Positions 32,250-50,876 of a stretch of DNA of 64,000 nucleotides are shown here, one piece after another. The position numbers were made by a program, and so were the translations under genes. The stretch is from Gammaproteobacteria bacterium (GTDB lineage: Bacteria; Pseudomonadota; Gammaproteobacteria; HK1), in the NCBI GenBank assembly GCA_021773645.1, contig JAJFJU010000012.1, forward strand, positions 558,001 to 622,000, given 5' to 3'. Under the pieces are notes generated by a model, which did no database searches, had not been told where the DNA came from, and saw nothing but the letters and a program-made list of their open reading frames with translations. Position 1 is the first letter of the stretch. Each line of letters starts with the position of its first letter.

Positions 32250-32252
32250 GTC

Positions 32253-32615
32253 ATGGAAGCGCTCGGTCTCTACAATTACTGGTTGGTCATCGCACTGATG
32301 ATGACCGGCTTTTATATCGTAATTACCAGTCCCAATCTGGTGAAGAAGATCATTGGCCTGAACATCTTTCAGGCATCGGTTTTTATCCTCTATATCAGCA
32401 TGGGAAAGGTGGCTGGGGGTAGTGCGCCGATCCTTGCCGATCAGGTGACGCTTTATTCCAACCCGCTTCCTCATGTGCTGATTCTTACTGCGATTGTGGT
32501 GGGGGTTGCCACCACGGCCATGGGTTTGTCGCTGGTGGTGCGTATCTATGCCGCCTACGGCAGCATGGAGGAGGATGACATCGAGGTCATGGACAGATCG
32601 GAGACCGACGGGTGA
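32253..32615 (+). CDS. mrpC: Na+/H+ antiporter (Mrp) subunit C, NuoK-like
   Basis: A 120-residue three-span protein homologous to NuoK of complex I. VITSPNLVKKIIGLNIFQASVF, DPLPHVLILTAIVVGVA-like text (here NPLPHVLILTAIVVGVATTAMG) and the acidic tail are typical of MrpC. The stop overlaps the next start as ATGA. Confidence 0.94.
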   Translation: MEALGLYNYWLVIALMMTGFYIVITSPNLVKKIIGLNIFQASVFILYISMGKVAGGSAPILADQVTLYSNPLPHVLILTAIVVGVATTAMGLSLVVRIYAAYGSMEEDDIEVMDRSETDG

Positions 32616-34099: not shown

Positions 34100-35559
34100 A
34101 CACCGATACGGCATTGATGGCGGCTTTGCTGATCCCGCTGGCAGGCGCTGTATTGTTGCCGTTGGTGGGACGTTGGCCCAATGTGCGTGAGGCGCTGACC
34201 CTGCTGTGTGCCAGCCTGTTGTTTTTCTGTGTGGCCACGCTGACGCCAGCCGTATTGGCTGGGGCACGACCGGAATGGGTGCTGTGGGAGTTCTTTCCGG
34301 GCTTGCAGCTGGCCTTTCGGCTGGAACCGCTGGGGATGATTTTCGCGCTGGTGGCGTCATTTTTATGGATCATTACCTCGATCTACGCCATCGGTTATAT
34401 GCGTGGCAATCAGGAACTTAAGCAGACCCGCTTTTATGTTTGTTTTGCACTGGCCCTGGCAGCCACCATCGGCATTGCCTTTGCGGGCAACCTGCTGACT
34501 TTATTCATATTTTATGAGGCGTTGACCCTCTCCACCTATCCGCTGGTGGCACATAAGGAGAATGCTGAGGCACGGGCGGGGGGGCATACCTATCTGGGGG
34601 TTTTGCTCTCCACCTCTATCGCCTTTTTGCTGCTCGCTATCCTCTGGACCTGGTCCGCTACCAGGACGCTGGATTTTCGTGTGGGCGGGATACTAGCGGG
34701 TTCTGTGCATGGCCCCATGATCGGCCTGTTGTTGGCACTCTACGTGTTTGGTGTCGGTAAGGCGGCGTTGATGCCCTTTCATCGCTGGCTACCCGCAGCC
34801 ATGGTGGCGCCGACACCGGTGAGTGCATTGCTACATGCGGTGGCGGTGGTCAAGGCCGGAGTTTTCACCGTGGTGAAGGTGGTGGTTTATATCTTTGGTG
34901 TGGACTTGCTGAAAGGGGAGCCCAGTGCTGACTGGCTGCTTTACGTGGCCGCTGCCACTATCCTCATTGCCTCCATGGTGGCCCTGCGTCAGGATAATCT
35001 GAAACGTCGGCTCGCCTATTCCACCGTGAGCCAGCTGGCCTATATCACCCTGGCGACGGCTATTCTCGCGCCGCTCTCCCTGGTGGGTGCAGCGCTACAT
35101 ATCGCCGCCCACGCCTTTGGCAAGATCACACTGTTTTTTGCCGCCGGTTCCATTTATACCGCGGCGCACAAAACTAAAGTCAGTGAACTCGACGGTATTG
35201 GCCAGCGCATGCCTTGGACTATGGGGGCCTTCGCTATCGGCAGTCTGTCGATGATCGGGGTGCCGCCCACGGTGGGCTTCGTGAGTAAGTGGTACATCCT
35301 CCAAGGGGCCTTAAGTGCCGGCCAGCTATTTGCCGTCTTGGTGATCTTTGCCAGCACCTTGCTGAGTGCGGCCTATTATCTGCCGGTGATTTACGTGGCT
35401 TTCTTTCGCAAGCCGGCGACGCGCGGGGATCAGTCGGGGCACGGTGAGGCACCCTGGCCCATGGTGCTGGCACTTGTACTCACCGCGGCAGGTACCATGC
35501 TGTTGTTCTCTCTACTAGGTCTGCCTCTAGACCTTGCCAAAGGACTGGTGGGTGCATGA
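34096..35559 (+). CDS. Mrp antiporter subunit D family protein, second of three
   Basis: A 487-residue NuoL/M/N-family subunit. The span-5 Glu is in LLTLFIFYEALTLSTYPLVAHK and the Lys region reads PTPVSALLHAVAVVKAGVFTV. The DNLKRRLAYSTVSQLAYITL broken-helix motif and GVPPTVGFVSKWYI are intact. I take TTG 34096, which overlaps the previous stop as TTGA; ATG 34117 is the alternative. It resembles MrpD more than MrpA. It probably provides a second ion path in an enlarged complex. Confidence 0.88.
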   Translation: MNTDTALMAALLIPLAGAVLLPLVGRWPNVREALTLLCASLLFFCVATLTPAVLAGARPEWVLWEFFPGLQLAFRLEPLGMIFALVASFLWIITSIYAIGYMRGNQELKQTRFYVCFALALAATIGIAFAGNLLTLFIFYEALTLSTYPLVAHKENAEARAGGHTYLGVLLSTSIAFLLLAILWTWSATRTLDFRVGGILAGSVHGPMIGLLLALYVFGVGKAALMPFHRWLPAAMVAPTPVSALLHAVAVVKAGVFTVVKVVVYIFGVDLLKGEPSADWLLYVAAATILIASMVALRQDNLKRRLAYSTVSQLAYITLATAILAPLSLVGAALHIAAHAFGKITLFFAAGSIYTAAHKTKVSELDGIGQRMPWTMGAFAIGSLSMIGVPPTVGFVSKWYILQGALSAGQLFAVLVIFASTLLSAAYYLPVIYVAFFRKPATRGDQSGHGEAPWPMVLALVLTAAGTMLLFSLLGLPLDLAKGLVGA

Positions 35560-35798
35560 GCAATACGCATTGGCTTTATAGAAAGGAGAACCATCGCAAG
35601 CTATGGTTTGGCGGCGGCATCTTGCTGTTACTGACGGTGCTGGCGCAGTGGGTATTCGAGATTCATGGGCAATACGAATTTGAGGCTTGGCTGGGGTTTT
35701 TTGGCGTGTTTGGTTTCGTGAGCTGTGTGTTGATGGTGCTCTTTGCGAAGTTGCTTGGCCTGCTGATCAAACGCAAGGACAATTATTATCATGATTGA
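35556..35798 (+). CDS. small membrane protein of the mrp operon, unknown function
   Basis: An 80-residue protein with two predicted spans (about 17-33 and 44-69) and a charged C-terminus ending RKDNYYHD. I know no named family. It overlaps the preceding subunit gene by 4 bp (ATGA) and the following one by 8 bp, so it is translated as part of the operon and may be an accessory subunit of the complex. Confidence 0.82.
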   Translation: MSNTHWLYRKENHRKLWFGGGILLLLTVLAQWVFEIHGQYEFEAWLGFFGVFGFVSCVLMVLFAKLLGLLIKRKDNYYHD

Positions 35799-37479
35799 GG
35801 CCTTTCCTCCGGGCTTGATCATGGTCTTTGGCGCTTTCCTGCTGCCCGTGCTACGGGGCGGAGTGCGTACCGTATGGCTACTTGGCTTACCACTGCTCGC
35901 CCTCTATTTGGTGTGGCAGGTGCCCGATGGTGTGGTGGCTACGGTGTCGTTTCTGGATTACCGGCTGGAACCCCTGCGTGGCGATCGCCTGAGTCGCTTA
36001 TTCGCCACTATTTTCGGGCTGATGGCCTTTGTGGGCGGAATCTATGCCTACCGGCAGGCGCGTTTATTAGAGCTCTGTGCCGCCATGATTTATGCGGGTG
36101 CCGCCATCGGGGCCACCATGGCGGGGGATCTCATTAGCCTGTTTGTATGCTGGGAACTGATGGCCTTGGGTTCGACTTTGGTGATTTGGTCCGTGGGTAA
36201 GGACAAGGCCTACGGCGCCGGCATGCGTTACCTGCTGATTCACCTCTTGGGTGGCGTGGTGCTGATGGCGGGTATCGCAGCCTATGTGAATGCGACGGGC
36301 TCAGTGGCCTTCAACGCCATAGACACCTCGGCTCCGGGAGCATGGCTGATGCTGGTGGGTTTTCTCATCAATGCCGGCGCCCCACCGCTGTCGGCCTGGA
36401 TTGCGGATGCTTATCCCGAGGCATCACCCAGTGGCACGGTGTTCCTGTCTGCATTTACCACCAAGACTGCCGTGTATGTACTGATGCGGGGTTTTCCCGG
36501 TACCGAGATATTAATTTTTATCGGTCTGGCGATGATTTTCTACGGCATCATCTACGCCCTGCTGGAAAATGATGTGCGGCGCATTCTCGCCTATAGCATC
36601 GTCAATCAGGTGGGATTCATGGTGACCGGGATCGGCATTGGTACCGAGTTGGCCATCAACGGTGCTGCGGCCCACGCCTTTGCCGGCGTTATCTATACCT
36701 CTTTGCTGATGATGTCTGCGGGCGCGGTGCTTTATCGCACAGGCCGGCGTAAATGTAGTGAGTTGGGTGGGTTACTCCAGGGCATGCCTTTTACCACCGC
36801 CTGTGGTGTCATCGGTGCGTTGGCGATCTCCGCCTTTCCGCTTAGTTCGGGTTTTATCAGTAAGTTGATGACCAAGCAGGCCGCCGCCGATGAGCACTTG
36901 CTACTGATTTGGTTGCTGTTGCAGGCCGCTTCAGCGGGGGTGTTCCTCAGTGTTGGCATCAAGTTCCCCTGGTTTGTATTTTTCGAGAAAAATTCCGGCC
37001 TGCGACCACCGGAGGCACCGCTTAATATGCGGGTGGCTATGGGGCTGTTTGCCAGCCTGTGTATTTTCCTTGGGGTCGCTCCGGGCTTCTTGTACGCCTT
37101 TCTGCCCTTCGCGGTGGATTATGTGCCCTATACGGGTGGCCACGTGGTTATGCAGCTACAGCTTCTGTTGTTTTCCGGGCTCGCCTTCTTTGTCCTGCTG
37201 CCGCTGATGAAACGCACCCTGACTATCAGTCTGGATCTCGACTGGTTTTACCGGCGTTTCGCTCCGGCCCTAGTGAGGCTCTGCTTTCGTCTGAGCACAC
37301 CCATCGACAGGGCACTGAGGCGTGGGGTGGTGGAAAGGCTGTCGAGGTTGATCCAAAGTCTGCACACGTGGTGTGGCCCGCAAGGGGTGGTGGGGCGTGC
37401 GTGGGCAACCGGCCCTATGGTGGTGGTCGTGTTGCTGTTGTTGAGCGGGACCTTGGCCTTCTATTTTGGAGGCACCTGA
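35791..37479 (+). CDS. Mrp antiporter subunit D/NuoL-like protein, third of three
   Basis: A 562-residue NuoL/M/N-family protein with about 14 spans and an extra C-terminal amphipathic stretch and span. The conserved Glu is in LISLFVCWELMALGSTLVIW and the Lys in SGTVFLSAFTTKTAVYVLMRGF. ENDVRRILAYSIVNQVGFMVTG and LSSGFISKLMTKQ are present. The long tail (about 440-560) includes a lateral-helix-like segment rich in Arg and Leu. It closes the mrp operon; 168 bp to the next start carry no clear terminator. Confidence 0.88.
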   Translation: MIEAFPPGLIMVFGAFLLPVLRGGVRTVWLLGLPLLALYLVWQVPDGVVATVSFLDYRLEPLRGDRLSRLFATIFGLMAFVGGIYAYRQARLLELCAAMIYAGAAIGATMAGDLISLFVCWELMALGSTLVIWSVGKDKAYGAGMRYLLIHLLGGVVLMAGIAAYVNATGSVAFNAIDTSAPGAWLMLVGFLINAGAPPLSAWIADAYPEASPSGTVFLSAFTTKTAVYVLMRGFPGTEILIFIGLAMIFYGIIYALLENDVRRILAYSIVNQVGFMVTGIGIGTELAINGAAAHAFAGVIYTSLLMMSAGAVLYRTGRRKCSELGGLLQGMPFTTACGVIGALAISAFPLSSGFISKLMTKQAAADEHLLLIWLLLQAASAGVFLSVGIKFPWFVFFEKNSGLRPPEAPLNMRVAMGLFASLCIFLGVAPGFLYAFLPFAVDYVPYTGGHVVMQLQLLLFSGLAFFVLLPLMKRTLTISLDLDWFYRRFAPALVRLCFRLSTPIDRALRRGVVERLSRLIQSLHTWCGPQGVVGRAWATGPMVVVVLLLLSGTLAFYFGGT

Positions 37480-37647
37480 GTTTTTGCTTCTCCATCCGAC
37501 TATGGGTTCCGTCGATAATCTACTAAAGTTCCGCACCCCGAAGGCCAGATTTCCACAATCCTAGAAATGCTAGTTGGCCGCTAAGTGTGTGGCAATTTCG
37601 AATGCATCCGCCGGGTCAGGACGCGACGATATCCAGGTAAATATTTG

Positions 37648-38865
37648 ATGGAAACCCATGAGTTCTTTCTGTACCTGCTGGTCATTCTCCTGACCGCGCG
37701 GGTATTCGCGGAGCTGGCAACGCGTTTGCAGGCACCCTCAGTGATTGGCGAGCTGTTCGCAGGCATCGTCCTGGGGCCAAGTCTGCTGGGCTGGATTCAG
37801 CCGGTCGAGGCCATCAAGTTGATGGCAGAGATCGGTATTATCCTGCTGTTGTTCAAGGTTGGCCTGGAGACCGATATCAAGCGTCTGGCGAGCGCTGGCG
37901 CCAAGTCTTTGGTGGTTGCCATGACCGGCTTCTTTCTGCCGCTGGTATTTGGTTTCGCGCTTGGCTACTGGATGTTTGGCTTGTCGCTGCTGGTGTCACT
38001 GTTCATCGGCGGCACGCTGACTGCCACCAGCATCGGCATCACAGTGCGCGTGTTATCTGATCTCAAACGCCAGCAGGCACTTGAGGGGCAGATTGTGTTG
38101 GGGGCGGCAGTATTGGATGACGTGTTGGGCGTGTTGCTGCTGGCGCTGCTCTATGAGTTTTCTATCGGTGGGGGGGTGAGTCTTATCAACGCCGGCAAGG
38201 TGGTGATGTTTATCGGTGCATTTTTTGTCCTCGCACCCGTAGCCGCCAAGTTGATTTCATTAATCATCAAGCACTTCGATGCAGTTAGCGAGATTCCCGG
38301 GCTGCTCCCCACCACCATCGTGTCGCTGGTACTATTTTTCGCTTGGCTAGCCCATGTCCTGGGCGCGCCGGAGTTGCTGGGTGGCTTTGCCGCAGGACTC
38401 GCGCTCTCGAGACGCTTCTTTCTGCCTTTGGGTATCGCTTTGCACGCCGATGAGCATTTTGCGCACCGCATCGAGGCTCAGATGGAGCCTATAGTCCATT
38501 TGTTCACGCCGATATTTTTTGTATTTGTGGGGCTTTCCCTCAGCCTGCACGAGATCGACTGGAGTTCATCCTTTATCTGGGTCTTCTCGCTGTCGATGTT
38601 GCTGGTGGCAACCATTGGCAAGCTGGTAGGGGCATTTTTTATCAAGGAAGCCTGGCCAGTGCGGTGGGCTATCGGTATGGCCATGATTCCCCGTGGCGAA
38701 GTCGGCCTCATCTTCGCCGAGTTAGGGCGGGTAAGCGGCATATTCAGCAATGAGGTCTATGCGGGCATGGTCATAGTCATCGCGCTTACCACACTGTTGC
38801 CACCCCTTGTTATGAAGTGGTTCTATAAACATTACGGGGATCGTCTTCCGGTTGTGGTTGGATGA
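37648..38865 (+). CDS. CPA2-family cation:proton antiporter
   Basis: A 405-residue, about 12-span Na+ or K+/H+ exchanger. LQAPSVIGELFAGIVLGPSL is the family opening, GGTLTATSIGITVRVL lies in span 5, and the ion-binding Asp pair is in GAAVLDDVLGVLLLALL. MIPRGEVGLIFAELGR marks span 11. No TrkA-N domain follows, unlike KefB/C. I start at ATG 37648 because AGGTAA lies about 8 bp upstream; the frame extends to 37585. It is the third antiporter system in the segment and may be transcribed with the mrp operon or alone. Confidence 0.88.
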   Translation: METHEFFLYLLVILLTARVFAELATRLQAPSVIGELFAGIVLGPSLLGWIQPVEAIKLMAEIGIILLLFKVGLETDIKRLASAGAKSLVVAMTGFFLPLVFGFALGYWMFGLSLLVSLFIGGTLTATSIGITVRVLSDLKRQQALEGQIVLGAAVLDDVLGVLLLALLYEFSIGGGVSLINAGKVVMFIGAFFVLAPVAAKLISLIIKHFDAVSEIPGLLPTTIVSLVLFFAWLAHVLGAPELLGGFAAGLALSRRFFLPLGIALHADEHFAHRIEAQMEPIVHLFTPIFFVFVGLSLSLHEIDWSSSFIWVFSLSMLLVATIGKLVGAFFIKEAWPVRWAIGMAMIPRGEVGLIFAELGRVSGIFSNEVYAGMVIVIALTTLLPPLVMKWFYKHYGDRLPVVVG

Positions 38866-39143: not shown

Positions 39144-39160
39144 TTGGCACTGAAATTGCT
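39144..39160 (+). promoter_or_regulatory. sigma-54 (-24/-12) promoter of the PEP-CTERM protein gene
   Basis: TTGGCACTGAAATTGCT contains GG at 39146-39147 and GC at 39158-39159, exactly 10 bases apart, matching TTGGCAC-N5-TTGC. Transcription would begin about 12 bp further on, giving a leader of roughly 70 nt. RpoN control together with PrsK/PrsR is established for PEP-CTERM genes in some bacteria. Confidence 0.75.
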
Positions 39161-39241
39161 TGTTACTGAGCAGCAGACTCTTTTAGGTAAGCGAGAAGCG
39201 CAGTGTATCTAGCTCTCTCAGGTGTCATAACGGGTTTAATT

Positions 39242-40324
39242 ATGAAAAAAACCAAATTTAACAAAAGCTTAGCAGTTGTCGGATTCGTCCTTGCGGGTTT
39301 CTCGATGCCTTCATCGGCCTTCATTGCTGACGGCAAGTTTGACGCTTCGGAAGGCTATTCCCTCGCCTTTGATGTCAGTTTCTTGGTGGAGGGTGGTGGT
39401 GGCGCAACCGTTGATGGTGGGCGACTCTACTTTGGTACCGACGACGGCTCCGGCGACCACTTTATGTACTTCGCCATGCCCAAGGACTTTGTTGATAATA
39501 CTTATGGTGATAATGCGGTCGGATGGGGAAGCCATGGACACACGTTCAAGGATCTGCTGAATAGCGATTCCCTGGGTGGAGATGGCACTAATGCCGCGAT
39601 GAGCTTTGATACAGCGGGGGGGAACACCCTCGACATTGTTATCGACTATCTCGCCAAGGGTCAGTCTGATCCCATCGTCTACAAGTCCGCCGGAGCGGGC
39701 GATGCTGGTTTTTCCCAGGACGATGGTGAGGTGATATCTGGAGATGCTACGGTGATCAAGGAGATTGCCACCTCGATGGAATATAACATTGCGCAATTTG
39801 TCTCTCAGGCAGATATAGATGCCACAGCCGACAATCACGCGAACCCTGGTGTGGGGTTGCTCAAGGATTCCCCCGTGGTTGCCAGCATAGATGATGCGGG
39901 TAATTATGTGGTGGATATTGCAGCAAGCCCGGGCTTGGCCAATTGGATCTTTGAGGTTGGTTACGAGATTCAGTTTGAAGCTGGAACCTTTGGTGATGGC
40001 TGGACCAGTGCAACCGAGGCGCTCAGTTTTGTGTCGCTGGGAGACTCTCATGTCTCGCCGTCCAAGGTAGGGTTTGGCGGGAATATCATAGGCGACTGCG
40101 TTGGTGATTCGGATACTAGCTCGGATACTGGTTGGGACTCTGGCTATGATTCTGATTCCAGCGCGGATTCAGGTGCGGACTCCAGTACGAGTTCAGGCAC
40201 GGACTCCGGTGGTGCGTGTGACTCGGGAGGAACGGGAGTGCCGGAGCCGGGCACCCTGCTGCTACTGGGCTCTGGTCTCATGGGAATGGTGTGGAGCCGT
40301 CGGCGCCGGTGGTTGGTGGCCTAG
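39242..40324 (+). CDS. PEP-CTERM sorting-domain surface protein with Ser/Asp-rich linker
   Basis: Exported protein of 360 residues. A signal peptide (about 1-26, ending PSSAF) precedes a beta-rich, Gly/Asp-rich domain of about 250 residues that I cannot assign to a family. Residues 287-325 are a Ser/Asp/Thr-rich linker bracketed by Cys286 and Cys326, the only cysteines in the chain. The C-terminus is a textbook PEP-CTERM signal: VPEPGT (333-338), a hydrophobic stretch and RRRR (353-356). Exosortase should cleave here. No exosortase gene lies in the window. ATG 39242 is chosen because a signal peptide begins there; a GTG at 39203 is in frame. The gene has a sigma-54 promoter and a strong terminator, and it faces the prsT-glycosyltransferase operon. 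Confidence 0.9.
   Translation: MKKTKFNKSLAVVGFVLAGFSMPSSAFIADGKFDASEGYSLAFDVSFLVEGGGGATVDGGRLYFGTDDGSGDHFMYFAMPKDFVDNTYGDNAVGWGSHGHTFKDLLNSDSLGGDGTNAAMSFDTAGGNTLDIVIDYLAKGQSDPIVYKSAGAGDAGFSQDDGEVISGDATVIKEIATSMEYNIAQFVSQADIDATADNHANPGVGLLKDSPVVASIDDAGNYVVDIAASPGLANWIFEVGYEIQFEAGTFGDGWTSATEALSFVSLGDSHVSPSKVGFGGNIIGDCVGDSDTSSDTGWDSGYDSDSSADSGADSSTSSGTDSGGACDSGGTGVPEPGTLLLLGSGLMGMVWSRRRRWLVA
40100..40216 (+). repeat. degenerate GAY-TCN coding repeat (Ser/Asp-rich linker)
   Basis: The linker between the two cysteine codons is built from loose six-base units encoding Asp-Ser, varied by Thr, Gly and Ala. Synonymous changes between units show that it is not a recent expansion. Length variation between strains would be expected. 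Confidence 0.6.
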
Positions 40325-40365
40325 GTCGATATCTATGTAAGAAAAGCTCTTCCAATTAGAGTTTG

Positions 40366-40404
40366 AAAAAAGCCCGCAACCTAAAAGTTGCGGGCTTTTT
40401 TTTT
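40366..40404. terminator. bidirectional Rho-independent terminator
   Basis: AGCCCGCAAC (40371-40380), loop CTAAAA, GTTGCGGGCT (40387-40396), then a run of nine Ts. Six As precede the stem, so the minus-strand copy also ends in Ts. It separates the PEP-CTERM gene (plus) from the glycosyltransferase operon (minus). Confidence 0.92.
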
Positions 40405-40561
40405 GCTTCTCGAGGAAGACAATAGTGCCAACGCTTGTTGGTGCTTTTCCTGTCTCTGGCGACGGTGAGTGATCGTTATTTCAGGTCAAGTTTATGGTTG
40501 TAGTCGCACGGGCATCAACGCCGTTATTTAACGATACCCGGCTCCATGCAGGAGGTGTTTG

Positions 40562-43500
40562 CTACAGCTTCTGCCAGGTCGTAAACCAGTGCAGGCTTTC
40601 ATGCCACGTTTCGGATGTGGGTAGTCCCGAGGTGGCGGGATAGAAGAGTACAAACAGGCCTATTACCGTTGCTCCATACCCGGCCAGGAGGATTCGGTTT
40701 TTCCAGGCGCGAGGATCCAGCCGGGAGAGCAGGTAGCCGAGGCCCAGGATAAGGATCGGGATGTGCGGATAGTAGGCGTACAGGAAGGTGGGGCGTTCTA
40801 CCAGGATCCACGGTAGAAAAGGCAGGAAATAGGCGCTGGAGAGTAGCAGGCTAATACGGCTTCCACCCTTCAGTGCCTGCCATCCGAGTCCCAGCATTAG
40901 CAGCGCTCCAGGCCACCAGATTGCAGGATTGCCCAGTACGCTAATCGTCGAACGTATTCCCTGCGGGGAGTTGCCGCCAATAAATATCTCTGCCAGGGGT
41001 TTTGCCAGCGTGGGCCACAGATAAAAGGGGATACTGAGTGAGTGAGTCGATAGCGCCTTGTGATCACCGTGGTAGCCGAGGATAAAGTTTTGTTGATGCC
41101 AGAATGCCTTTAGTCCCGGTATGGAGAACAGGGCGGGTTGTTCGGGGAGCGTGGATAAAAATTCCCAGTGACTGAGGTAATAAATCAGTGCGGGCAACAG
41201 GATAAAGCCAAGTGTCCATGCGCCGGCGTGGGGCAGGGTCTCGCTGTAAAGTTGTCGCTTAAAAGGTTGCCACCTTGATGCAGAATTTCTGCTGAGCTGG
41301 GCTAGATGCCAGAGCTGCTGTCCTGCTACCAGGATGAAGATGGCAAAACCGGTGAACAAGGCGCTCCATTTTATTGAGGCGGCGAGCCCGAAGCAGCAGG
41401 CAGCGAGGACAAACCAGCCTATACTGCGCCGGCGGAAATAGCCTTGATCCAGGCTGAACCAGCGGTAGAGGGCTAGCAGCATGGCGGTCAGAAAAAACAC
41501 CATAAAGGTATCGATATTCGCCATACGCCCAATGCTGAAAGGCATGCATTCAAAGACGAGAAGGAAAGCTGCGGAGTAAGCACCCAATCGTCGACCAGTG
41601 AATTCCCGGCCTGCAAAAAAGAGCAATAAAGGCATCAGAGCTGTGACCAGCGTAGTGCTGAAACGCCAGCCAAAAGGGCTCATGTCAAAGAGCCGGATTC
41701 CCAGGCCGATGAGGCTTTTTCCAAGCGGTGGGTGGGTTTTTTCGTAGGGTGTGACGCCGTTGACGAGGTTGTACGCGGAACGGGCGTAGTACACCTCGTC
41801 CCAGTAACTGTTGTCGCGGTAATCATCGATTTCCCCGATGCTTTGTTGTTCATCAAAGAAGGGGTGCTGACGGACCGGCCCGGAAAATATGGTGTCCCCC
41901 TGAATGACTACGATCTCGTCCGGAAGCAATCGCTGGCCGTCCACGCCCTGCAATTCCAGTTCATTGAGTACCGCTCCGTGGCCACTGATGTGAAGTTGCA
42001 AACGGCTAAGCTGGACGGCCTCAAAGTGGCGGGTATGATTCTTGAAACTGGCCCGGTATTTTCTTTTAGTGGGATATCTTAGCTTGCCCTGATTGGCTGG
42101 CCACAGTGGTTGCCAGCGTCCATCCTGCCAATGTTTGAAGCCCAGCACCGGGCCCGTTTCCCCGCTGTAGAAGGCAATTCCTGTCAGTTTCTGGGGGCGG
42201 TCAAAACGCAATTCAAGGGTTGCGGATTCAGCCAGGACTTTGAGGCCATTTGTGGGGTATTTGAGCGCTCCAAGATTGCTAAACAGCACTCCTAAGGCGA
42301 ATAAGAAAAGTGCAAGGAGGGCGGCATAATCAAGGCGGTTTAGGGAGAAAGCCCGGGTTGCCGCCGCGCGTGTTGGCAATGTGCATAGGGTATTTAACGA
42401 ATGCCAAGTGGTCTTTGTACGGGCTAACGCGTAGTGAGTCAGGCCGCGCAGTCCGGTGTTATGTCGGTGCCACTCAATGCTAATTTCAAACAGTAATAGC
42501 AACCCAAGTCCGATGTTGGCGGCACGACTAATTGGACTCGCCAGCAGGGTTTCCATGCGCAGATGCTCGACCGCGTGGTATTCCAGCCCGAGCTTAAAAA
42601 ATACCAATAGCGTCAGAGCCAAATAAACCCACAGATGATGGATGCCACGCAGCAACAAGGGGGTCATGAATATGAGGACAGGCAGCCATTCGCGTTGATG
42701 GCTTTGAGGTAGCAACAGGGCGCTGGCGAAGCCGAGGAGGAAGAAGTTTGGTAGCAGTTCAGGTTGAGCGGGTGCGGTGGACCGTACCCACATAATCAGC
42801 AGGGCGAGCAGCCCCAGTGCTGAGCCTACACGCCAGTCGGAATGCTCGGCTGTGGCTACCAGGCCCTGCCACAGATCGGCGGGGGCATAGCCCGGTGCAA
42901 TGGTGAGCAGGATAAACACCACACTAGCAGCAAGGGCACCACCGCCGCGTTGCCGTGCATTGCCAAAGCGCCAGCCATAGGCGACAAAGTACAACGATAA
43001 AATGATCCACGAAGGGCTGAGAGAGAAAGAGGCAGCCCACAGCGCCCATGCGCTGATTTGCTGTCCGCGGGTATGCAAGATGGCGACTGAGACCCACAAG
43101 ACGGTGGTGATGGCACTGCCGAGACCAGAGTAGGCCGAGGCCATGATGAGTGCTGGATTGAGGATCAGCAGTAGGCCGATGATCCAGACACTTCGCCCAC
43201 GCATACGTTCACGCAAGTATTCCAGCAGCAGGGCGGCACTCAGTAGATCCAGGACGATGAAGGGGAGCTTGAGTACCACCGTGGAAGCCGCACTGTGTTG
43301 CCATTGCAGGGCCTGTAGCAAAGCACCTGAAGATTTTAGGACGAAGGCGTAGAGCAATGGATAGTGGGCCGCCAGTTCAAGTGGGTTGGTGGGGGTACGG
43401 CCAAGGGCGAAGTCCCTCAGGGTTGTGATTTCGCTTTCCAGTCCGGTATAGGGGCTGGCAATCAGGCGGATAGCGAAGCCCGCAAGAATGAGCAGCCAAA

Positions 43501-44224
43501 ACCCTGGATATTTCCACAAGGAACGCAGAGCCGGGCTGTTTTCGCTCGCACTTTCAAGTCGTCCGCCGCGCCGCAGGAAAACCAGGAAGGCCAACAGGTA
43601 GCTAATCAGGCCAAAGAAAATGTAGATGCGCAGGGGCATAGATGATTTTTTTCCCTTCGCTTGTTGGAGCTGGATGCTTTGATATGACCCGTTCCAGCTA
43701 TCCAGTTCCTCGATCCGTGCTTCATCGAACCAGGCGGTGCCCGTAGCCGTGGCATCCCAATAGCCCAATCGCAGGGCAAAAGGGAGTTTGCCGGTCTCTT
43801 TGCTTAAAAATACCTGTTCTACCCGGGTCCACGGCGTGTCGCCCGTCAGCGTTTTGGCACTGCGGTTATAGCTGCCATATATCGAGAGGTTGGCGCCCAC
43901 CGTACCTTTAACCTGATGAGTCTTTATCCAGGCGGAGAAGCGATAATAACGCCCGGCATAGACGGGTACGGTGACTTGTCGGCGGAGATCGTTGGGTCTG
44001 GAGGCGTGCAGGCGGAAGCTGCTTGCCGAATCATGTGAAAGCCGTTTATCCACCTTGAATTGGCCGTGTTTTTTCCACATGCGCGATTCCGCGGGACCGT
44101 ACAGTTCGTATAGATTTTCAGCACGCAGTGGCGGGGCGGCACCAGACGCGCTGCTATAGAACAGGGCGCCAAACAGGGTCCAGAAAAGGATTTTCAGGGA
44201 TTGCAGCCGATGGGTGAATTTCAA
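40562..44224 (-). CDS. multi-module membrane glycosyltransferase ending in a PMT (GT39) domain
   Basis: A 1,220-residue protein with four recognisable parts. After a signal segment (about 5-30) comes a carbohydrate-binding-like beta domain (about 35-180, YYRFSAWIKTHQVKG, GTAWFDEARIEE). Next is a first polytopic GT-C-like region (about 240-650), then a discoidin-like beta domain (about 660-770, KLTGIAFYSGETGPV). Last is a protein O-mannosyltransferase region whose first loop carries the acidic pair in NSYWDEVYYARSAY (about 806-819) and KTHPPLGKSLIGLGI. PMT enzymes move a sugar from a polyprenyl phosphate to Ser/Thr of exported proteins. I start at TTG 44224, overlapping the upstream stop as TTGA; a GTG at 44281 would overlap by 61 bp. 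It is the last gene of the prsT operon. Confidence 0.82.
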   Translation of the reverse strand: MKFTHRLQSLKILFWTLFGALFYSSASGAAPPLRAENLYELYGPAESRMWKKHGQFKVDKRLSHDSASSFRLHASRPNDLRRQVTVPVYAGRYYRFSAWIKTHQVKGTVGANLSIYGSYNRSAKTLTGDTPWTRVEQVFLSKETGKLPFALRLGYWDATATGTAWFDEARIEELDSWNGSYQSIQLQQAKGKKSSMPLRIYIFFGLISYLLAFLVFLRRGGRLESASENSPALRSLWKYPGFWLLILAGFAIRLIASPYTGLESEITTLRDFALGRTPTNPLELAAHYPLLYAFVLKSSGALLQALQWQHSAASTVVLKLPFIVLDLLSAALLLEYLRERMRGRSVWIIGLLLILNPALIMASAYSGLGSAITTVLWVSVAILHTRGQQISAWALWAASFSLSPSWIILSLYFVAYGWRFGNARQRGGGALAASVVFILLTIAPGYAPADLWQGLVATAEHSDWRVGSALGLLALLIMWVRSTAPAQPELLPNFFLLGFASALLLPQSHQREWLPVLIFMTPLLLRGIHHLWVYLALTLLVFFKLGLEYHAVEHLRMETLLASPISRAANIGLGLLLLFEISIEWHRHNTGLRGLTHYALARTKTTWHSLNTLCTLPTRAAATRAFSLNRLDYAALLALFLFALGVLFSNLGALKYPTNGLKVLAESATLELRFDRPQKLTGIAFYSGETGPVLGFKHWQDGRWQPLWPANQGKLRYPTKRKYRASFKNHTRHFEAVQLSRLQLHISGHGAVLNELELQGVDGQRLLPDEIVVIQGDTIFSGPVRQHPFFDEQQSIGEIDDYRDNSYWDEVYYARSAYNLVNGVTPYEKTHPPLGKSLIGLGIRLFDMSPFGWRFSTTLVTALMPLLLFFAGREFTGRRLGAYSAAFLLVFECMPFSIGRMANIDTFMVFFLTAMLLALYRWFSLDQGYFRRRSIGWFVLAACCFGLAASIKWSALFTGFAIFILVAGQQLWHLAQLSRNSASRWQPFKRQLYSETLPHAGAWTLGFILLPALIYYLSHWEFLSTLPEQPALFSIPGLKAFWHQQNFILGYHGDHKALSTHSLSIPFYLWPTLAKPLAEIFIGGNSPQGIRSTISVLGNPAIWWPGALLMLGLGWQALKGGSRISLLLSSAYFLPFLPWILVERPTFLYAYYPHIPILILGLGYLLSRLDPRAWKNRILLAGYGATVIGLFVLFYPATSGLPTSETWHESLHWFTTWQKL

Positions 44225-45078
44225 AGCTTGATTCCAGCTTGAGCCAGATCTCGATAATTGATGAGTTCGATATTTAGACACTTCACGGTATCCAGGATGG
44301 CAGGATCGGTAAGTGCCTTAAGCTCCGCTTCGTGCTGATAGCCCCAATGGGCCTGCGGTGAGTTGGGATCCGGGTGTCCGGGGTGGCACATGAGCTCGCT
44401 ACTGCCGTGGACAGGTAGATCCGACAACAGGGCATGAAGTCTCTCGCTATTCAATTTGCCTCCGAGATAGAAGCCGATGAAATGATTCACATGCGTGAAC
44501 TTGGGTTCTTGGCCTAGGTGCCAGAGGGTGTTCAGCACGAGCAATTGAGCCAGTCGGGCTGGATGGCGCAGCATGTAGGGGCGGGGACGCTCGCAGGGAA
44601 AGCGTATGGCGGGAATGCCAAAGTGCTGGGCCAGTTCTCCGGTGATGCGCCGTAGTGCCGGAAGGGCATGTAAGTGCTGATGGCTATCAAGATGGCTGGG
44701 GGTGATGTTGGCGTCGAGGACGCGGGTAATTTGTGCCCCCCATTCCTCACGTACCTGGTCGAGTTGGATGGCCCCTCGAAAATAGGTCTTGATGAAATCA
44801 CTGGCATGCCGGTGAAAGTGGCCTTGGACATCCACCAGGCTGGGTATTTGTCCTGCTGGGAGGATTGGCCGTGCCTCGCCTACCAGAGTGAGGTGAACGC
44901 CCATATCGAGATTGGCCACGGAATGTTGAAGTTGCAGTGCGTGCTGGAAGGCGGCACCACCAGCCATTATCGAGGTGGCGGTGAGGATGCCGTGGCGATG
45001 TGCCTGCAAGATGCCTTCGTTGATAGCCTCAGAGAGGCCAAGATCGTCGCCATGGACGATGAGAACGGGGTGCGGCAC
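44221..45078 (-). CDS. ChbG/HpnK (YdjC-like) carbohydrate deacetylase
   Basis: Zinc-dependent deacetylase family protein of 285 residues. The metal-binding Asp pair is in LIVHGDDLGLSEAIN near the start, and the histidines in SHLDSHQHLHALPAL. MGVHLTLVGEARPILP and SSELMCHPGHPD are further family motifs. Members remove acetyl groups from N-acetylated sugars. GTG 45078 lies 6 bp after the GT2 stop. In this operon it may deacetylate a lipid-linked sugar; the substrate is not shown. Confidence 0.87.
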   Translation of the reverse strand: MPHPVLIVHGDDLGLSEAINEGILQAHRHGILTATSIMAGGAAFQHALQLQHSVANLDMGVHLTLVGEARPILPAGQIPSLVDVQGHFHRHASDFIKTYFRGAIQLDQVREEWGAQITRVLDANITPSHLDSHQHLHALPALRRITGELAQHFGIPAIRFPCERPRPYMLRHPARLAQLLVLNTLWHLGQEPKFTHVNHFIGFYLGGKLNSERLHALLSDLPVHGSSELMCHPGHPDPNSPQAHWGYQHEAELKALTDPAILDTVKCLNIELINYRDLAQAGIKL

Positions 45079-45084
45079 AGCTAT

Positions 45085-46095
45085 CTAGTCGTCCAAGTGA
45101 TCCGTGGAAGATGTTGATGGCGAAGTGGTATTGCTCAATCCGAGGTCTTCACTGACCAGGAAACGCGGCCGGCCGCGTACTTCGATGAGGATCCGCCCGA
45201 TATATTCCCCCAGCACGCCGAGCAGCATAAACAGCACCCCGAACAGGAAGGAGATAATGGCAATGGAAGAGGCCCAGCCAGGGACCGCCTGGCCAATGAT
45301 GAGTTTGCTGTAGATGGCATAGAGGATGCTCAAAAAGGATAGCCCACTGGTAACAAAGCCGATCAAGACACCAACGCGCAGTGGGACCAGGGAGAAGGAG
45401 CTGAGCCCATGCCAGGCAAATTGGAGCATCTTGCGCGGGGTGTACTTGGTGACTCCACGCCAGCGACGCTCGGACTGAAAGCTGATCTTACTACTTTTGT
45501 AGCCCACCCATTGGACGATCCCGCGCAAAAACAATCCTTCTTCACGCATTTTCAGTATATCTCCGACCACCTGCCGATCCAGCAGGCGAAAATCGGCCAT
45601 GCCCGGCTCCAGCGGTACACCACTCAGATATGAAAATAGTCGATAAAAGAGTCGGGAGGTGTAGCGTTTGAAGGGGCTGAAATCATCGGGATCCAGGCGC
45701 GCGGTGTTCACCACCTTATGCCCTGATTGCCACTGTTCGAACAGCTTTGGCAATAGTGCTGGTGGATGCTGCAGATCGGCATCCATGGAGATGACGGCAT
45801 CCCCGGTAGCGCGTTGCAAGCCGGCGAAAAGGGCGTATTGATGGCCAAAATTACGTGATAGCCGGATTCCCTTGATGCGGGAATCGGTCTGGTTCAGGGC
45901 TTCTATTTTCCCCCAGGTCTCATCACTGCTGCCATCGTCGATATAGATGATTTCCCAGCGTGCCGGCAATTCCTCCAGTACAAACTCCAGCTTTTGCTGC
46001 AGCGGTTCCAGGTTCTCGGCCTCGTTATAGGCTGGGATAATGACCGAGATTGAAGGGGTGGGCGCTTGGGCTTTAGGCAAGGTGCATGACTCCAT
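45085..46095 (-). CDS. GT2 glycosyltransferase, polyprenyl-phosphate sugar synthase (GtrB/DPM-like)
   Basis: A 336-residue enzyme predicted to load a nucleotide-sugar onto undecaprenyl phosphate at the cytoplasmic face. The N-terminal GT-A domain has SVIIPAYNEAENLEPL, IIYIDDGSSDET, LSRNFGHQYALFAGL and the DxD-type MDADLQHPP. A QxxRW-like element appears as SFQSERRWRG. Two C-terminal spans (about 235-260 and 275-300) anchor it, as in GtrB and ArnC. The gtrA gene lies immediately upstream, the classic flippase partner. Confidence 0.9.
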   Translation of the reverse strand: MESCTLPKAQAPTPSISVIIPAYNEAENLEPLQQKLEFVLEELPARWEIIYIDDGSSDETWGKIEALNQTDSRIKGIRLSRNFGHQYALFAGLQRATGDAVISMDADLQHPPALLPKLFEQWQSGHKVVNTARLDPDDFSPFKRYTSRLFYRLFSYLSGVPLEPGMADFRLLDRQVVGDILKMREEGLFLRGIVQWVGYKSSKISFQSERRWRGVTKYTPRKMLQFAWHGLSSFSLVPLRVGVLIGFVTSGLSFLSILYAIYSKLIIGQAVPGWASSIAIISFLFGVLFMLLGVLGEYIGRILIEVRGRPRFLVSEDLGLSNTTSPSTSSTDHLDD

Positions 46096-46098
46096 CTG

Positions 46099-46491
46099 CT
46101 ATCGTGCGGTTCCGGTCGCTTGTTCCCGGAATGACCAGAGGTGGTTTCCCGCGAAATTCCACAGCAATACTATACCGGTGGCTCCTAGCTGGGCCCACAG
46201 ATAATGCACCTCCAGATAGTGCATTGCCGCTGCCAGTACCGCTCCATTAAGGGTAAGCCCGGCTAGGGCCACGAGGATAAATTTACTGTAAGTCGCCCGG
46301 TGTTGCTGGGTACTTTGAAAGGTGTAGCGGTAGTTGAGGGCATAGTTGAAGCCTGAGGAAACGGCAAAGCCGATGGACGATGCCAACACTTCGGCTAGCG
46401 CGAAGCCCTCGACCAAAACCAGCAAAATGGCATAGTGCAGGACGGTGGCAAAACTACCTACTAGGGCGAAGCGTAGAAACTTTCCAACCAT
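46099..46491 (-). CDS. GtrA-family membrane protein (candidate lipid-linked sugar flippase)
   Basis: A 130-residue protein with four predicted spans. FLRFALVGSFATVLHYAILL at the N-terminus and FNYALNYRYTFQST after span 2 are the GtrA signature; LWNFAGNHLWSFRE closes the domain. GtrA proteins are thought to flip polyprenyl-phosphate sugars made by GtrB. It is 3 bp before the GT2 gene and 27 bp after prsT. Confidence 0.9.
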   Translation of the reverse strand: MVGKFLRFALVGSFATVLHYAILLVLVEGFALAEVLASSIGFAVSSGFNYALNYRYTFQSTQQHRATYSKFILVALAGLTLNGAVLAAAMHYLEVHYLWAQLGATGIVLLWNFAGNHLWSFREQATGTAR

Positions 46492-46518
46492 GTTAGGCTT
46501 CTCGTTATGACTGGTGGA

Positions 46519-49326
46519 TTATTTCTTTTCCAGTTTCCGGGCGAGGGCCTCGGCCTTGCTTCGCTCCGCGAAGCTTTCCTTGTACTTTAATAATGCAGTC
46601 AGCTCGCGCTTGGATTCCTTATCCCGGCCAAGACGATTTAGCGCAACCGCCAGATGGTAGAGGATCCCCGGTCTGCGAGCGGCGCGAGAGCGAGCCTCAC
46701 GCAGAAAGCGAAGCGCCTTTCCTGGTTCACCCATTTGTACCAACACCCAGCCATAGGTGTCCAATGCTGCCGCCTGTTTAGGGGCGAGCTGATAGGCCCT
46801 TTCAGCGTGGTAAAGGGCGCGTGCATCGTTATTTTGCAGATAGAGATTGGCGAGGTTGTTGAGTATGGCAGCATCATTGGGCAACGCCTTGATTAGTCGT
46901 TCATGCTCGCGGATAGCTTCGGTCGAACGCTTGCTTTCCCCATATCCGGAGGCCAATGCTCGACGTACTTCATGGTCAGTGGGGTGAGCAGCCAGCCACC
47001 GCTCCACCAGTTTCAGACCTTGTGTCAGCTGTCCACTGGATTTGTGGGCTTTATACAGGCGTACTACGAGAATGGGGCTGGCTTTTTTGACTTGTCCGGC
47101 TTGATAGGTATTTAGTGCCTCTTTGTAGCGCTTCATTGCCATCAACGTGTCGCCAGCCAGGAGCTCACCCACGGAATTTTTTGGATGGCTCTGTTGCAGC
47201 CCGTGCGCACGCTTGAGCGCCTCTTTGTATTTACCTAGGCGTAGCTCTACACGCACCATCGCAGTTAGTACTGGAAGATATCCAGGTTTCCCCTCCAACG
47301 CCTTCAAAAGTGACCAATGGGCACCGTCAAAATCATTTACAGCGATCTGATAGCGGCTGATACGCAGTAAGTTGTCTGCTGCAAAACCGGCAAATTTGGT
47401 CATGCGCCGGAAGGTGACCTTGGCCTTGTCCTTGGCTCCTGAGGCAAGCTCTGCACGCCCCAGTGCCGTCAATATGGGCAGACTACGGGGATGTTTTTGC
47501 TCTAGCTGCCGTGCCAGAATCAGGGCCTTTTTCGGCTTGCCTGCCTGCAGGTAGAGTTCTCCCAAATCAAGTTGGGCAGATAATTGATTACTATCCATGG
47601 CTTGTAATTTTTCTAGCCAACGGATGGCTCCGGGAAGCTGCCCGGTGTCCTTGGACATACGCGCCAGTTCCTCCATGGCACGGGTTTCTGCCGGTGCTAG
47701 TCGGAGGATTTCCAGATAGCGGGCCTTTGCTTCTTTCAGGCGCCCGGCGGCAATGTCTATCTTGGCTAGGTTGTACCGTGCCGGCAGATATCTAGCATCC
47801 ACCGCAATGGCTTGGTTAAAGGCCTGGCTGGCAGCCTTTGTTTTGCCGCGGGCGAGGAGAATGGTAGCCAACAGGTTGTGAGCAGTTGGATTCGTTGGCT
47901 GATGTTTGAGGGTTCGGAGAGTGCTTTTCAGCGCCTCCGGGAAGTTGCCTTGCTTGAGCAAAATAGTGCCAAGTAGCACCCCCGAACGCCCACTGGAATC
48001 GAGGCCAAATGCGGTTTCTAGATCGGCCACTGCGGAAGCCCGCTGACCGGTGGCCAGTCGGCTCAAGGCTAGCTGAGTACGTAGTGAAGCGAGATCAGGG
48101 GCAAGTCTTGCGGCATCTTCAAAGTAGCGAGTGGCTTTGGAAAAATCACGCGTACCCATGTATGCATTTCCGAGCAGGCCATGGAGCTGCGCGTTTTTGG
48201 GTGCAAAGCGTAGTGCTTGTTCCAAGGTTTTTATGGCTCGAGCGTGCTTTCCCCGGCGAATTAACAAGTTACCCAATAATATGCGTCCACCCACATGGTG
48301 AGGCACCAGCTTCATAAAGCGCTGAATCTCCTCATAGGCGGAGTCGTATTTCCCCTCGGCGTGATGAATTACCGCGGATAACAGCAGGCTGGGTGGGTGG
48401 CTGAAGAGAAAATCACGCCCTTTGCTGAGCAAGGTGATACCTGCTGTACGCAATACCGCCTGGGCCTCGGCAAGTTGATCGGCCTGGGCTAGCACCATGG
48501 CATGGAGATAGCTTGCCTGTGGATCATAGGGATGCCGATCGCGGACCAACTCCAATTCCGTGATTGCTTCTTCTTTCCTTCCAAGATCGAGCAGTGCAGC
48601 GGTTTTTCCGATGCGTGCCCGAAAATGCTTTTCGTAGAGCGCGAGGGCCTTGTCGTAATATTGAATGGCGCCTTCAAGGTCTTGTCGGATGCGGCGGATC
48701 TCTCCTTTGACATACCATGCACCGGCACTCTCCGGGGCGATGGAAGTGGCTTCATCGGCAAGATCTTCGGCACCTTCATGGTCGCCTCGCTGCAGTAGTA
48801 CCGTGGCTTTTCCAATGATGGGGTCCGCACTATCAGGGGTCAGGCGGGCTGCCAAGGTAAAGTCTATATCCGCTTCCTTCAGCTGGCGCAGTTGTACCCG
48901 GGTTTCGCCACGAATAACGGCCAGTGCGGACTCGGTTTCCGGGTGACGTCGGCCGGCGGGGAATTTATCGAAGATCTGCTTATGCTTGCCTTGGAGTAAA
49001 TAGGCCTTGGCCAAAGGGACCAGTACCAGATTTTCATCCGCCCCGGAGGCTAGTGCGACCCGCAGCTCCTTTTCCGCATTGGCGCCGTCTTCCTTGCTCA
49101 GATAAACGCGGCCAAGCAGCAGGCGTGCCGGGAGGTGTTCGGAATCCAGCTTAAGCGCATTTTTTAGCTGAATAATGGCTGCGTTGTGTTCGCCCTCCGT
49201 ATAACGACTTTGGGCATCTTCGTAGAATTCCGAGGGGGTGCTCGGTGCGGCAGACACCGACAGGTTCATGAGCAGGATAAGGAATCCTGAAATCCAAGGA
49301 GACTGTTTCCGAGTGTGGAATTTCAT
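46519..49326 (-). CDS. prsT: PEP-CTERM system TPR-repeat protein PrsT
   Basis: A 935-residue exported TPR protein found with exosortase/EPS gene clusters. A signal peptide (about 1-26, ending SVSA) is followed by FYEDAQSRYTEGEHNAAIIQLKNALKL-type TPR units that continue to the C-terminus; more than 20 can be counted. The opening and the GRVYLSKEDGANAEKEL region match what I know of PrsT. Its role is likely assembly or export of surface polysaccharide. The leader holds a 7-bp inverted repeat, and no strong ribosome site is seen. It heads the operon with gtrA, GT2, deacetylase and PMT genes. The clear family assignment is what ties that operon to PEP-CTERM biology. Confidence 0.87.
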   Translation of the reverse strand: MKFHTRKQSPWISGFLILLMNLSVSAAPSTPSEFYEDAQSRYTEGEHNAAIIQLKNALKLDSEHLPARLLLGRVYLSKEDGANAEKELRVALASGADENLVLVPLAKAYLLQGKHKQIFDKFPAGRRHPETESALAVIRGETRVQLRQLKEADIDFTLAARLTPDSADPIIGKATVLLQRGDHEGAEDLADEATSIAPESAGAWYVKGEIRRIRQDLEGAIQYYDKALALYEKHFRARIGKTAALLDLGRKEEAITELELVRDRHPYDPQASYLHAMVLAQADQLAEAQAVLRTAGITLLSKGRDFLFSHPPSLLLSAVIHHAEGKYDSAYEEIQRFMKLVPHHVGGRILLGNLLIRRGKHARAIKTLEQALRFAPKNAQLHGLLGNAYMGTRDFSKATRYFEDAARLAPDLASLRTQLALSRLATGQRASAVADLETAFGLDSSGRSGVLLGTILLKQGNFPEALKSTLRTLKHQPTNPTAHNLLATILLARGKTKAASQAFNQAIAVDARYLPARYNLAKIDIAAGRLKEAKARYLEILRLAPAETRAMEELARMSKDTGQLPGAIRWLEKLQAMDSNQLSAQLDLGELYLQAGKPKKALILARQLEQKHPRSLPILTALGRAELASGAKDKAKVTFRRMTKFAGFAADNLLRISRYQIAVNDFDGAHWSLLKALEGKPGYLPVLTAMVRVELRLGKYKEALKRAHGLQQSHPKNSVGELLAGDTLMAMKRYKEALNTYQAGQVKKASPILVVRLYKAHKSSGQLTQGLKLVERWLAAHPTDHEVRRALASGYGESKRSTEAIREHERLIKALPNDAAILNNLANLYLQNNDARALYHAERAYQLAPKQAAALDTYGWVLVQMGEPGKALRFLREARSRAARRPGILYHLAVALNRLGRDKESKRELTALLKYKESFAERSKAEALARKLEKK

Positions 49327-49433: not shown

Positions 49434-50876
49434 TTAATAGTAACGAGGCCGTTCTACTCCCGAGATAACCCGTGCCACGCGGGTGGCCTGGGTGGAATAA
49501 CCGTATTCATTGTCATACCAGACGTAGACGACTACATGCTGCGCGTGCACCTTGGTGGCAAGGGAGTCGACGATTGCCGGGTGGTTGTTGCCAATCATGT
49601 CACTGCTAACGACATCTTCATCGCGGGTGTGGTCGATCTGTGAGGCGAGTGGGCCGCTGAGGGAGGCTTGGCGCAAAACGTCGTTAATTTCATCGCGGGA
49701 GACTTCCCGTTCCAGCTCCATGCTGAGGATGGCCAGTGAGACATTGGGCGTGGGTACGCGTACGGCGTTGCTGGTCATTTTCCCTGCCAGCTCCGGCATG
49801 GCCTTGGCTGCGGCGATGGCGGCACCGGTTTCTGTCAGCACCATGTTCAGCGGCGCCGAGCGTCCACGCCGTTGTTTCTTGTGGTAGTTGTCGAGCAGGT
49901 TCTGGTCGTTGGTGTAGGCATGCACGGTTTCGATGTGACCAGAGCGGATGCCGAAGCGATCGTTAAGCACCTTCAAGGGGGGCGCGATGGCGTTGGTGGT
50001 GCAGGAGGCGGCGGAGAAGATGTGTTCGTCCGCATTCCAGCCAAGGGTGTTGACCCCATAGACAATGTTGGGGATGTCTTCCTTGCCTGGTGCCGTCAAC
50101 AGAACTCGCTCCACCCCACGGGCCTCCAGGTGTTTGCCAAGATCTGCTCGGGTGCGCCAGATGCCGGTGTTATCGATGACCAGGGCGTTATGGATGTCGT
50201 ATTGTTCGTAGTCGACGCTTTCTGGTGTGTTGGCGGAGATGAACTGAATGTAATGGCCGTTGACCACGATGGCCTCTTCCTGCTCGAGAATCTCGATATG
50301 ACCGTGAATCAGACCGTGTACGGAATCCCGCTTTAACAGATTGGCGCGCTTGTACATGTCGAGCTTGCCGCGACAGACGACCGCGCGTAGGCGCAGGGCA
50401 TCACCGGCCCCCCCGCGGGCGAGCAGGATGCGAGCCAGCAGGCGACCAATGCGCCCGAAGCCATAGAGCACTACATCACGTGAGCCAGTGCTGCAGGTCC
50501 CATTATTGAGATGGGCATCCAGCTTTGTGTGTAGGAAGCTGGCGAGATCACTTTGTCCGTTGCCGGCATGTTCCTTCCGCCATTCCAATGCCAGCCGACC
50601 CACATCGATAGTGGAGGGACACAGGCTCAAGGTCGCTATACCTTCGATAATGGGTAGGGTGTCCCGGATGCGTAGCTTGCTTTGGGAAATCTGACTGGCG
50701 TAGTGGTGGTGGGCGAGAATTTCCACTATGCCTTCATCCACCAGGACACGACGAAACAGCACTAGCTCGACGGAATGCTCGGTCCAGAGCCTATGAATGA
50801 TGCTGATGGCATGCGCTGCCAGTTGCTCTCCCTTGATCCAGCAGTTGAGCTCCTGGGTGTATTTTTTGTTGGCCAT
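49434..50876 (-). CDS. gap: glyceraldehyde-3-phosphate dehydrogenase, long form
   Basis: Oxidises glyceraldehyde-3-phosphate to 1,3-bisphosphoglycerate. At 480 residues it belongs to the long GAPDH class of proteobacteria, with an extra N-terminal helical region of about 130 residues before the Rossmann fold (VVLYGFGRIGRLLARILL). Catalytic Cys292 is in SAASCTTNAIAP, and HAYTNDQNLLDNYHKKQRRGRSA and WYDNEYGYS follow. AGGAGAATCATC precedes ATG 50876. It stands apart from other glycolytic genes. Long-form enzymes are often assigned to gluconeogenesis, but direction cannot be read from the sequence. Confidence 0.93.
   Translation of the reverse strand: MANKKYTQELNCWIKGEQLAAHAISIIHRLWTEHSVELVLFRRVLVDEGIVEILAHHHYASQISQSKLRIRDTLPIIEGIATLSLCPSTIDVGRLALEWRKEHAGNGQSDLASFLHTKLDAHLNNGTCSTGSRDVVLYGFGRIGRLLARILLARGGAGDALRLRAVVCRGKLDMYKRANLLKRDSVHGLIHGHIEILEQEEAIVVNGHYIQFISANTPESVDYEQYDIHNALVIDNTGIWRTRADLGKHLEARGVERVLLTAPGKEDIPNIVYGVNTLGWNADEHIFSAASCTTNAIAPPLKVLNDRFGIRSGHIETVHAYTNDQNLLDNYHKKQRRGRSAPLNMVLTETGAAIAAAKAMPELAGKMTSNAVRVPTPNVSLAILSMELEREVSRDEINDVLRQASLSGPLASQIDHTRDEDVVSSDMIGNNHPAIVDSLATKVHAQHVVVYVWYDNEYGYSTQATRVARVISGVERPRYY

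Follow-up and report, generated by a model that had tools for sequence, protein, structure and literature searches.

A candidate deacetylating glycosylation cassette beside a PEP-CTERM gene in a gammaproteobacterial genus

Background

The closest described counterparts of the locus reported here are the three-component systems, in which a GT2 polyprenyl-phosphate sugar synthase, a GtrA-type flippase and a polytopic GT-C transferase are encoded in one operon (PMC8035078, PMC11127046); the synthase GtrB makes undecaprenyl-phosphate glucose (PMC4728340). A second counterpart is the Pgf operon of Streptococcus mutans, cnm-pgfS-pgfM1-pgfE-pgfM2, where the gene for the surface-protein substrate, cnm, adjoins the glycosylation genes (PMC5856776). 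According to reviews, NaxD, an enzyme of the YdjC family, deacetylates N-acetylgalactosamine while this is carried on undecaprenyl phosphate (PMC11279074, PMC10927774). Within the PEP-CTERM system, a sigma-54 site lies upstream of PEP-CTERM genes in proteobacteria, and glycosylation of the proteins has been suggested since 2006, from amino-acid composition only (Haft 2006; PMC1569441); prsT genes adjoin PEP-CTERM genes, and prsT is required for floc formation (PMC9850573).

The window analysed here, a stretch of 64,000 nucleotides, comes from contig C4 of a gammaproteobacterial genome of 2.49 Mb (G000). A sequence-only reading of it had proposed that an operon facing a PEP-CTERM gene builds a deacetylated lipid-linked sugar and places it on PEP-CTERM proteins, and had added that no such pathway was known. 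The latter statement was too strong, since the GT2-GtrA-GT-C systems, NaxD and the Pgf operon are all precedents.

Results

Organisation and setting of the locus

The PEP-CTERM gene (39242..40324, plus strand) converges with a minus-strand operon in the order PrsT-GtrA-GT2-YdjC-PMT, and all six genes were confirmed by their open reading frames and family profiles. PrsT and GtrA are separated by 27 bp, GtrA and GT2 by 3 bp, and GT2 and YdjC by 6 bp, and the reading frames of YdjC and PMT overlap by 61 bp, provided that the latter starts at the GTG at 44281; the arrangement originally described, with these three gaps and one overlap, is therefore correct. Between the convergent units lies a terminator-like hairpin with a 16-pair stem (40365..40402), which has runs of A and T on both sides and could terminate both the PEP-CTERM gene and the operon. 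The GC content of the cassette resembles that of its surroundings and so gives no sign of recent import, and the recurrence of the same arrangement in a second species (G002, locus L015) indicates that the locus is not an assembly accident.

The neighbourhood has features of its own. Directly upstream of the operon, at 49434-50876, is a gene for a 480-aa glyceraldehyde-3-phosphate dehydrogenase of the PRK08289 type, whose N-terminus carries a long extension and which is kept in all three species of the genus. Cation/proton antiporters are packed into 28486-38865 (NhaD-type at 28486-30027, Mrp-type subunits at about 31288-37479 and a Na/H exchanger at 37585-38865), which suggests a salt- or pH-stressed habitat. 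Two further reading frames at 58654-61221, of 556 and 273 aa, have no NCBIfam match at 1e-20.

The enzymes of the cassette

The putative flippase is of the GtrA type (46099..46491, minus strand; PF04138, 2e-26). The gene that follows (45085..46095, minus strand; PF00535) encodes a GT2 polyprenyl-phosphate sugar synthase resembling GtrB, PgfS and ArnC; its best NCBIfam model is PgfS, at 250 bits and so below the equivalog cut-off of 500, and its nearest solved relatives are GtrB (sll0501, 5ekp) and ArnC. The YdjC-family deacetylase (44221..45078, minus strand; PF04794, 5e-67, 227 bits) is HpnK/NaxD-like, although its 180 bits against the HpnK model fall below the equivalog cut-off of 232.6; it retains the metal and active-site motifs GDDLG, GVHLTL and SHLDSHQHLH, and the genome has no further match of this kind.

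The last gene (40562..44281, minus strand) encodes a PMT-domain protein of 1239 aa (PF02366, 6e-18; PF16192, 2e-12), which is again the sole PF02366 match in the genome. It is composed of a CBM_4_9-like N-terminal domain (a weak match of 1.7e-4, below the gathering score), a polytopic N-terminal half without known family, a periplasmic insert that precedes the catalytic loop, and a C-terminal GT39 PMT domain. Catalytic motifs are conserved in this protein, as they are in GT2 and YdjC: DE at 828-829, HPPLGK at 850-855, R919 and D924 are present, together with the PMT_4TMC region (PF16192). With 50 bits against the bacterial Pmt equivalog NF058602 (cut-off 800), it is a PMT-domain protein and not an orthologue of the characterised Pmt. 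Internal duplication was considered as its origin and rejected, since the two halves share no detectable sequence similarity, and structure prediction of both halves yielded no usable model (pLDDT 36.5 and 39.6). GT2 (PF00535), GtrA (PF04138) and GT-C (PF02366/PF16192) components are encoded in one operon, which is the gene set of a three-component system, and this set is kept in G002.

The PEP-CTERM protein and its linker

The PEP-CTERM protein, a surface protein 360 aa long, has a signal peptide and, at its C-terminus, a sorting signal (PF07589/TIGR02595, above cut-off), and is likely to start at the ATG at 39242 rather than at the GTG at 39203. Its residues 284-332 (40091..40237, plus strand) form a linker rich in serine, aspartate, threonine and glycine, identified by composition and a shuffle test as the predicted acceptor region: these 49 residues include 14 S, 11 D, 11 G and 5 T, a density of S, T and D reached by none of 5000 shuffles. 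We examined all PEP-CTERM matches in three genomes of the genus (10, 11 and 16 matches, 37 in total). Over the 60 residues that precede the sorting motif, the S+T+D fraction is 0.52 in the window protein and 0.58 in its G002 orthologue, against at most 0.32 in every other match, so that a linker of this kind occurs in 2 of the 37, both of which adjoin the cassette. It bears a resemblance, and a resemblance only, to the glycosylated serine-aspartate repeats of staphylococci (PMC3794999).

The gene is a member of the usual PEP-CTERM regulon. A sigma-54 (-24/-12) promoter site, TTGGCACTGAAATTGC, matches exactly at 39144..39159 on the plus strand, 82 bp before the ATG, and is the sole exact match in the window. 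It agrees with the site reported for such genes by Haft 2006 (PMC1569441); its first base is also the left edge of the region that the sequence-only reading had singled out. A shuffled window yields about two matches at one mismatch, and the call therefore rests on position plus sequence. The 107 bp of sequence upstream of PrsT contain no such site, with up to two mismatches allowed; the operon does not share the sigma-54 site of the PEP-CTERM gene, and co-regulation of the two gains no support here.

A sister species without cassette and without linker

The full locus is present in G002, a member of the same genus, with identities of 86% for the PEP-CTERM protein, 78% for PMT, 76% for YdjC, 92% for GT2, 83% for GtrA and 92% for PrsT. 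A third member of the genus, G001, has the same flanks, with MsrQ, Smr and GAPDH on one side and the Na/H antiporter on the other. At this syntenic site the PrsT-PEP pair is kept and a second such pair lies alongside, but GtrA-GT2-YdjC-PMT are absent, and nowhere in the G001 genome does PF02366 or the window YdjC have a match. The PEP-CTERM orthologue of G001 is 73% identical overall and is without exactly the Ser/Asp/Thr-rich linker; VGDSDTSSDTGWDSGYDSDSSADSGADSSTSSGTDSGGACDSGG is missing from it and a short loop is found instead, between what are apparently the same two cysteines. The length of the linker differs between G000 and G002.

By their PrsT proteins, G000 and G002 are closer to each other (92% identical) than to G001 (79%), and G001 is the outgroup of the pair. 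Since the two linker-positive proteins are orthologues, the pattern reduces to one joint gain or loss. The covariation of linker and cassette is thus suggestive, as a single event in a sequence comparison and not a replicated correlation or a proof, and coincidence may account for their joint loss or gain.

Two observations concern the G001 site itself (contig C9). At the position of its sisters' cassette, between PrsT and the PEP-CTERM gene, is a non-coding, repeat-like stretch of about 500 bp (L046:9740-10160), which may be the mark of an insertion or deletion event. The two tandem PrsT-PEP pairs span L046:6922-15514, and the second PEP-CTERM protein matches the XDP1 family with 185 bits against a cut-off of 125.

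PrsT and the exosortase locus

The first gene of the operon (46519..49326, minus strand) encodes a PrsT-family TPR protein with a signal peptide (TIGR02917, 670 bits; cut-off 312). It had been taken to link the operon to the exopolysaccharide (EPS) system and to share in the function of the sugar genes, and neither claim holds well. The genome encodes three PrsT proteins above the 312-bit cut-off, scoring 817 (contig C8), 699 (contig C3) and 670 (window). The 699-bit protein belongs to an exosortase/EPS locus that lies apart from the window contig and contains exosortase, PrsR, PrsK and this PrsT of its own, with 1213 aa and a lipobox-like LLGGC. When the window PrsT is aligned to it, its signal region has no cysteine and hence no lipobox, although the model (named PEP_TPR_lipo) would lead one to expect a lipoprotein signal. 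As one of three paralogues, and without the lipobox cysteine, the window PrsT is not in itself a link between the operon and exopolysaccharide export; and as the PrsT-PEP pair exists in G001 without the cassette, PrsT belongs with the PEP-CTERM gene and not with the sugar genes. A PEP-CTERM signal and an exosortase are both encoded in G000.

PrsT paralogues seem to accompany individual PEP-CTERM genes, which suggests that they are protein-specific partners. The PrsT with the top score in the genus (817 bits) lies in each case beside a sugar-epimerase-like gene with a GalE-like N-terminus, away from exosortase (L047:4398-8185, L052:6190-9977, L053:6840-10821).

Distribution beyond the genus

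Among the genomes searched, the operon and the full-length PMT protein were found in this genus only, and orthologues of the PEP-CTERM protein were found in none of 140 genomes outside it (143 with the genus included). A pattern scan of named genomes for the PMT pair returned a sole record, G002 itself (the MAG Gammaproteobacteria bacterium isolate OFTM50); its patterns were taken from the N-terminal half of PMT, so that it may have passed over remote relatives in other phyla. The cassette genomes have an exosortase, and the spread of the operon through genomes without one, which would have spoken against a PEP-CTERM connection, was not seen.

Parts of the cassette travel further. Among 276 genomes of the class, the nearest YdjC outside the genus is that of G200, at 49% identity, and the adjoining GT2 is 62% identical to that of the window; GtrA lies between the two, and upstream is a polytopic protein without a match to any PMT family. 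GtrA, GT2 and YdjC recur together in G119, so that a YdjC gene is grouped with a polyprenyl-phosphate GT2 in G000, G002, G200 and G119. This repeated grouping points to a joint substrate, and GT2 and YdjC are, on the evidence of gene neighbourhood, likely to share one. Exosortase is also present in G200 and G119, which, in two genomes, says little.

PMT proteins in the other families of the phylum are simple, of about 420-580 aa, and often near another GT2, and their neighbourhoods never contain YdjC, PrsT or a convincing PEP-CTERM gene. The tested PMT-bearing genomes of one family (f197) are without exosortase, and those of another (f194) all have it; the former indicates that a PMT can occur independently of exosortase, which has no bearing on the cassette.

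Discussion

A proposed pathway

In proposing how these genes might work together, we infer the identity of the sugar, the order of the reactions, the acceptor and any effect on sorting. First, GT2 would transfer an N-acetylhexosamine from UDP to undecaprenyl phosphate, and YdjC would strip the acetyl group to leave a positively charged hexosamine. The lipid-linked sugar would then be moved across the membrane by GtrA. PMT (GT39) enzymes typically act on serine and threonine of exported proteins, and the PMT domain would here transfer the sugar to such residues; the most likely acceptor would be the Ser/Asp/Thr linker that immediately precedes the exosortase sorting signal of the adjacent PEP-CTERM protein. 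This would produce a stalk of amino sugars and aspartate, on which the protein would be displayed at the surface or within the matrix.

Our principal reading is that the cassette is a deacetylating periplasmic three-component system that would put hexosamine on one dedicated PEP-CTERM protein, and we give this a probability of about one half. Several points count against it: linker and cassette vary together in one evolutionary event only, the operon is without the sigma-54 site of the PEP-CTERM gene, the best solved relative of the GT2 makes undecaprenyl-phosphate glucose and not an N-acetylhexosamine, and the closest GT2-YdjC relatives use another polytopic protein, with no PMT family match. 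A bolder version, in which the cassette serves a single exosortase-sorted protein and a deacetylated hexosamine on the coevolved Ser-Asp linker forms a zwitterionic stalk before the cleavage site, is tentative. The idea of PEP-CTERM-coupled glycosylation with which the sequence-only reading began has gained real but limited support: the gene set fits and linker and cassette vary together, and its deacetylated sugar and its acceptor stay conjectural.

The chief competitor, which we consider unlikely, is that the cassette decorates a glycan or lipid (lipid A, O-antigen or exopolysaccharide) and merely adjoins the PEP-CTERM gene. It has models in FlmF2-NaxD-FlmK, which serves lipid A galactosamine, and in the Gtr systems, which serve O-antigen. 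NaxD, a characterised YdjC enzyme acting on an undecaprenyl-phosphate sugar, works for lipid A (PMC11279074, PMC10927774), and most three-component systems decorate glycans (PMC8035078, PMC11127046). Moreover, the GtrA-GT2-YdjC genes of G119 are in an apparent surface-polysaccharide locus, and the G200 group is beside nucleotide-sugar-type genes (as judged from N-terminal sequences). However, the transferase of the window carries, with its PMT domain, the PF16192 region that is typical of protein O-mannosyltransferases, and has no ArnT-type match; decoration of a glycan or lipid would also leave the covariation of linker and cassette unexplained.

That covariation, on the other hand, would be fortuitous if the linker were a neutral spacer of low complexity that can expand, and the cassette had come to lie between PrsT and the PEP-CTERM gene by chance, with no functional relation between linker and cassette. 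The PrsT-PEP pair of G001 does without the cassette, the second tandem pair there implies that the site is fluid, the linker is not constant in length, and only one independent event is involved. We nevertheless judge this account improbable, because the linker is unique to the G000 and G002 orthologues among the 37 PEP-CTERM matches, and because linker and cassette have been retained together since the ancestor of the two species, with cassette enzymes that are still 76-92% identical. Least probable is a general protein O-glycosylation system with many exported substrates, the PEP-CTERM neighbour being one of them: this is the only PMT in the genome and the Pgf system does modify both Cnm and WapA (PMC5856776), but no other PEP-CTERM protein in the three genomes has a Ser/Thr-rich linker, in a survey that covered the PEP-CTERM proteins among the exported proteins.

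What the locus has to offer is a single protein with a single predicted site and a compact set of genes, and a natural control in the sister species that lacks both cassette and linker. If the principal reading is right, two known chemistries would be joined, the removal of an acetyl group from a sugar on undecaprenyl phosphate and the transfer of sugar to a protein by a PMT enzyme, a combination whose description we did not find in the literature.

Comparison with known systems

The genome has the hallmarks of the PEP-CTERM/exosortase A system, namely PEP-CTERM protein, sigma-54 promoter, PrsK, PrsR, PrsT and exosortase (PMC9850573, PMC1569441), but no dedicated glycosylation cassette has been described for that system. 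The likeness to the Pgf operon lies in a GT2 whose best model is PgfS, a PMT-2-type membrane protein and an adjacent surface-protein gene. The Pgf operon differs in modifying a Gram-positive cell-wall protein, in having an epimerase instead of a deacetylase and in lacking GtrA; with a PgfS score below the equivalog cut-off, the comparison is one of working principle only.

The FlmF2-NaxD-FlmK system of Francisella and the Arn pathway combine a GT2, an enzyme that deacetylates or deformylates a sugar on undecaprenyl phosphate, and an integral-membrane transferase. The cassette matches the former in having a YdjC-family enzyme (the family of NaxD; PMC11279074), a GT2 and a membrane transferase, but in both of those pathways an ArnT-like transferase acts on lipid A, whereas here a PMT-domain protein is encoded beside a PEP-CTERM gene. 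With the GtrB-GtrA-GT-C systems the cassette shares its GT2, GtrA and polytopic GT-C encoded together. Unlike them, it adds a YdjC deacetylase and has as its transferase a PMT-domain protein with extra domains, and where their acceptor is a glycan of the cell wall or LPS, the likely acceptor here would be a protein.
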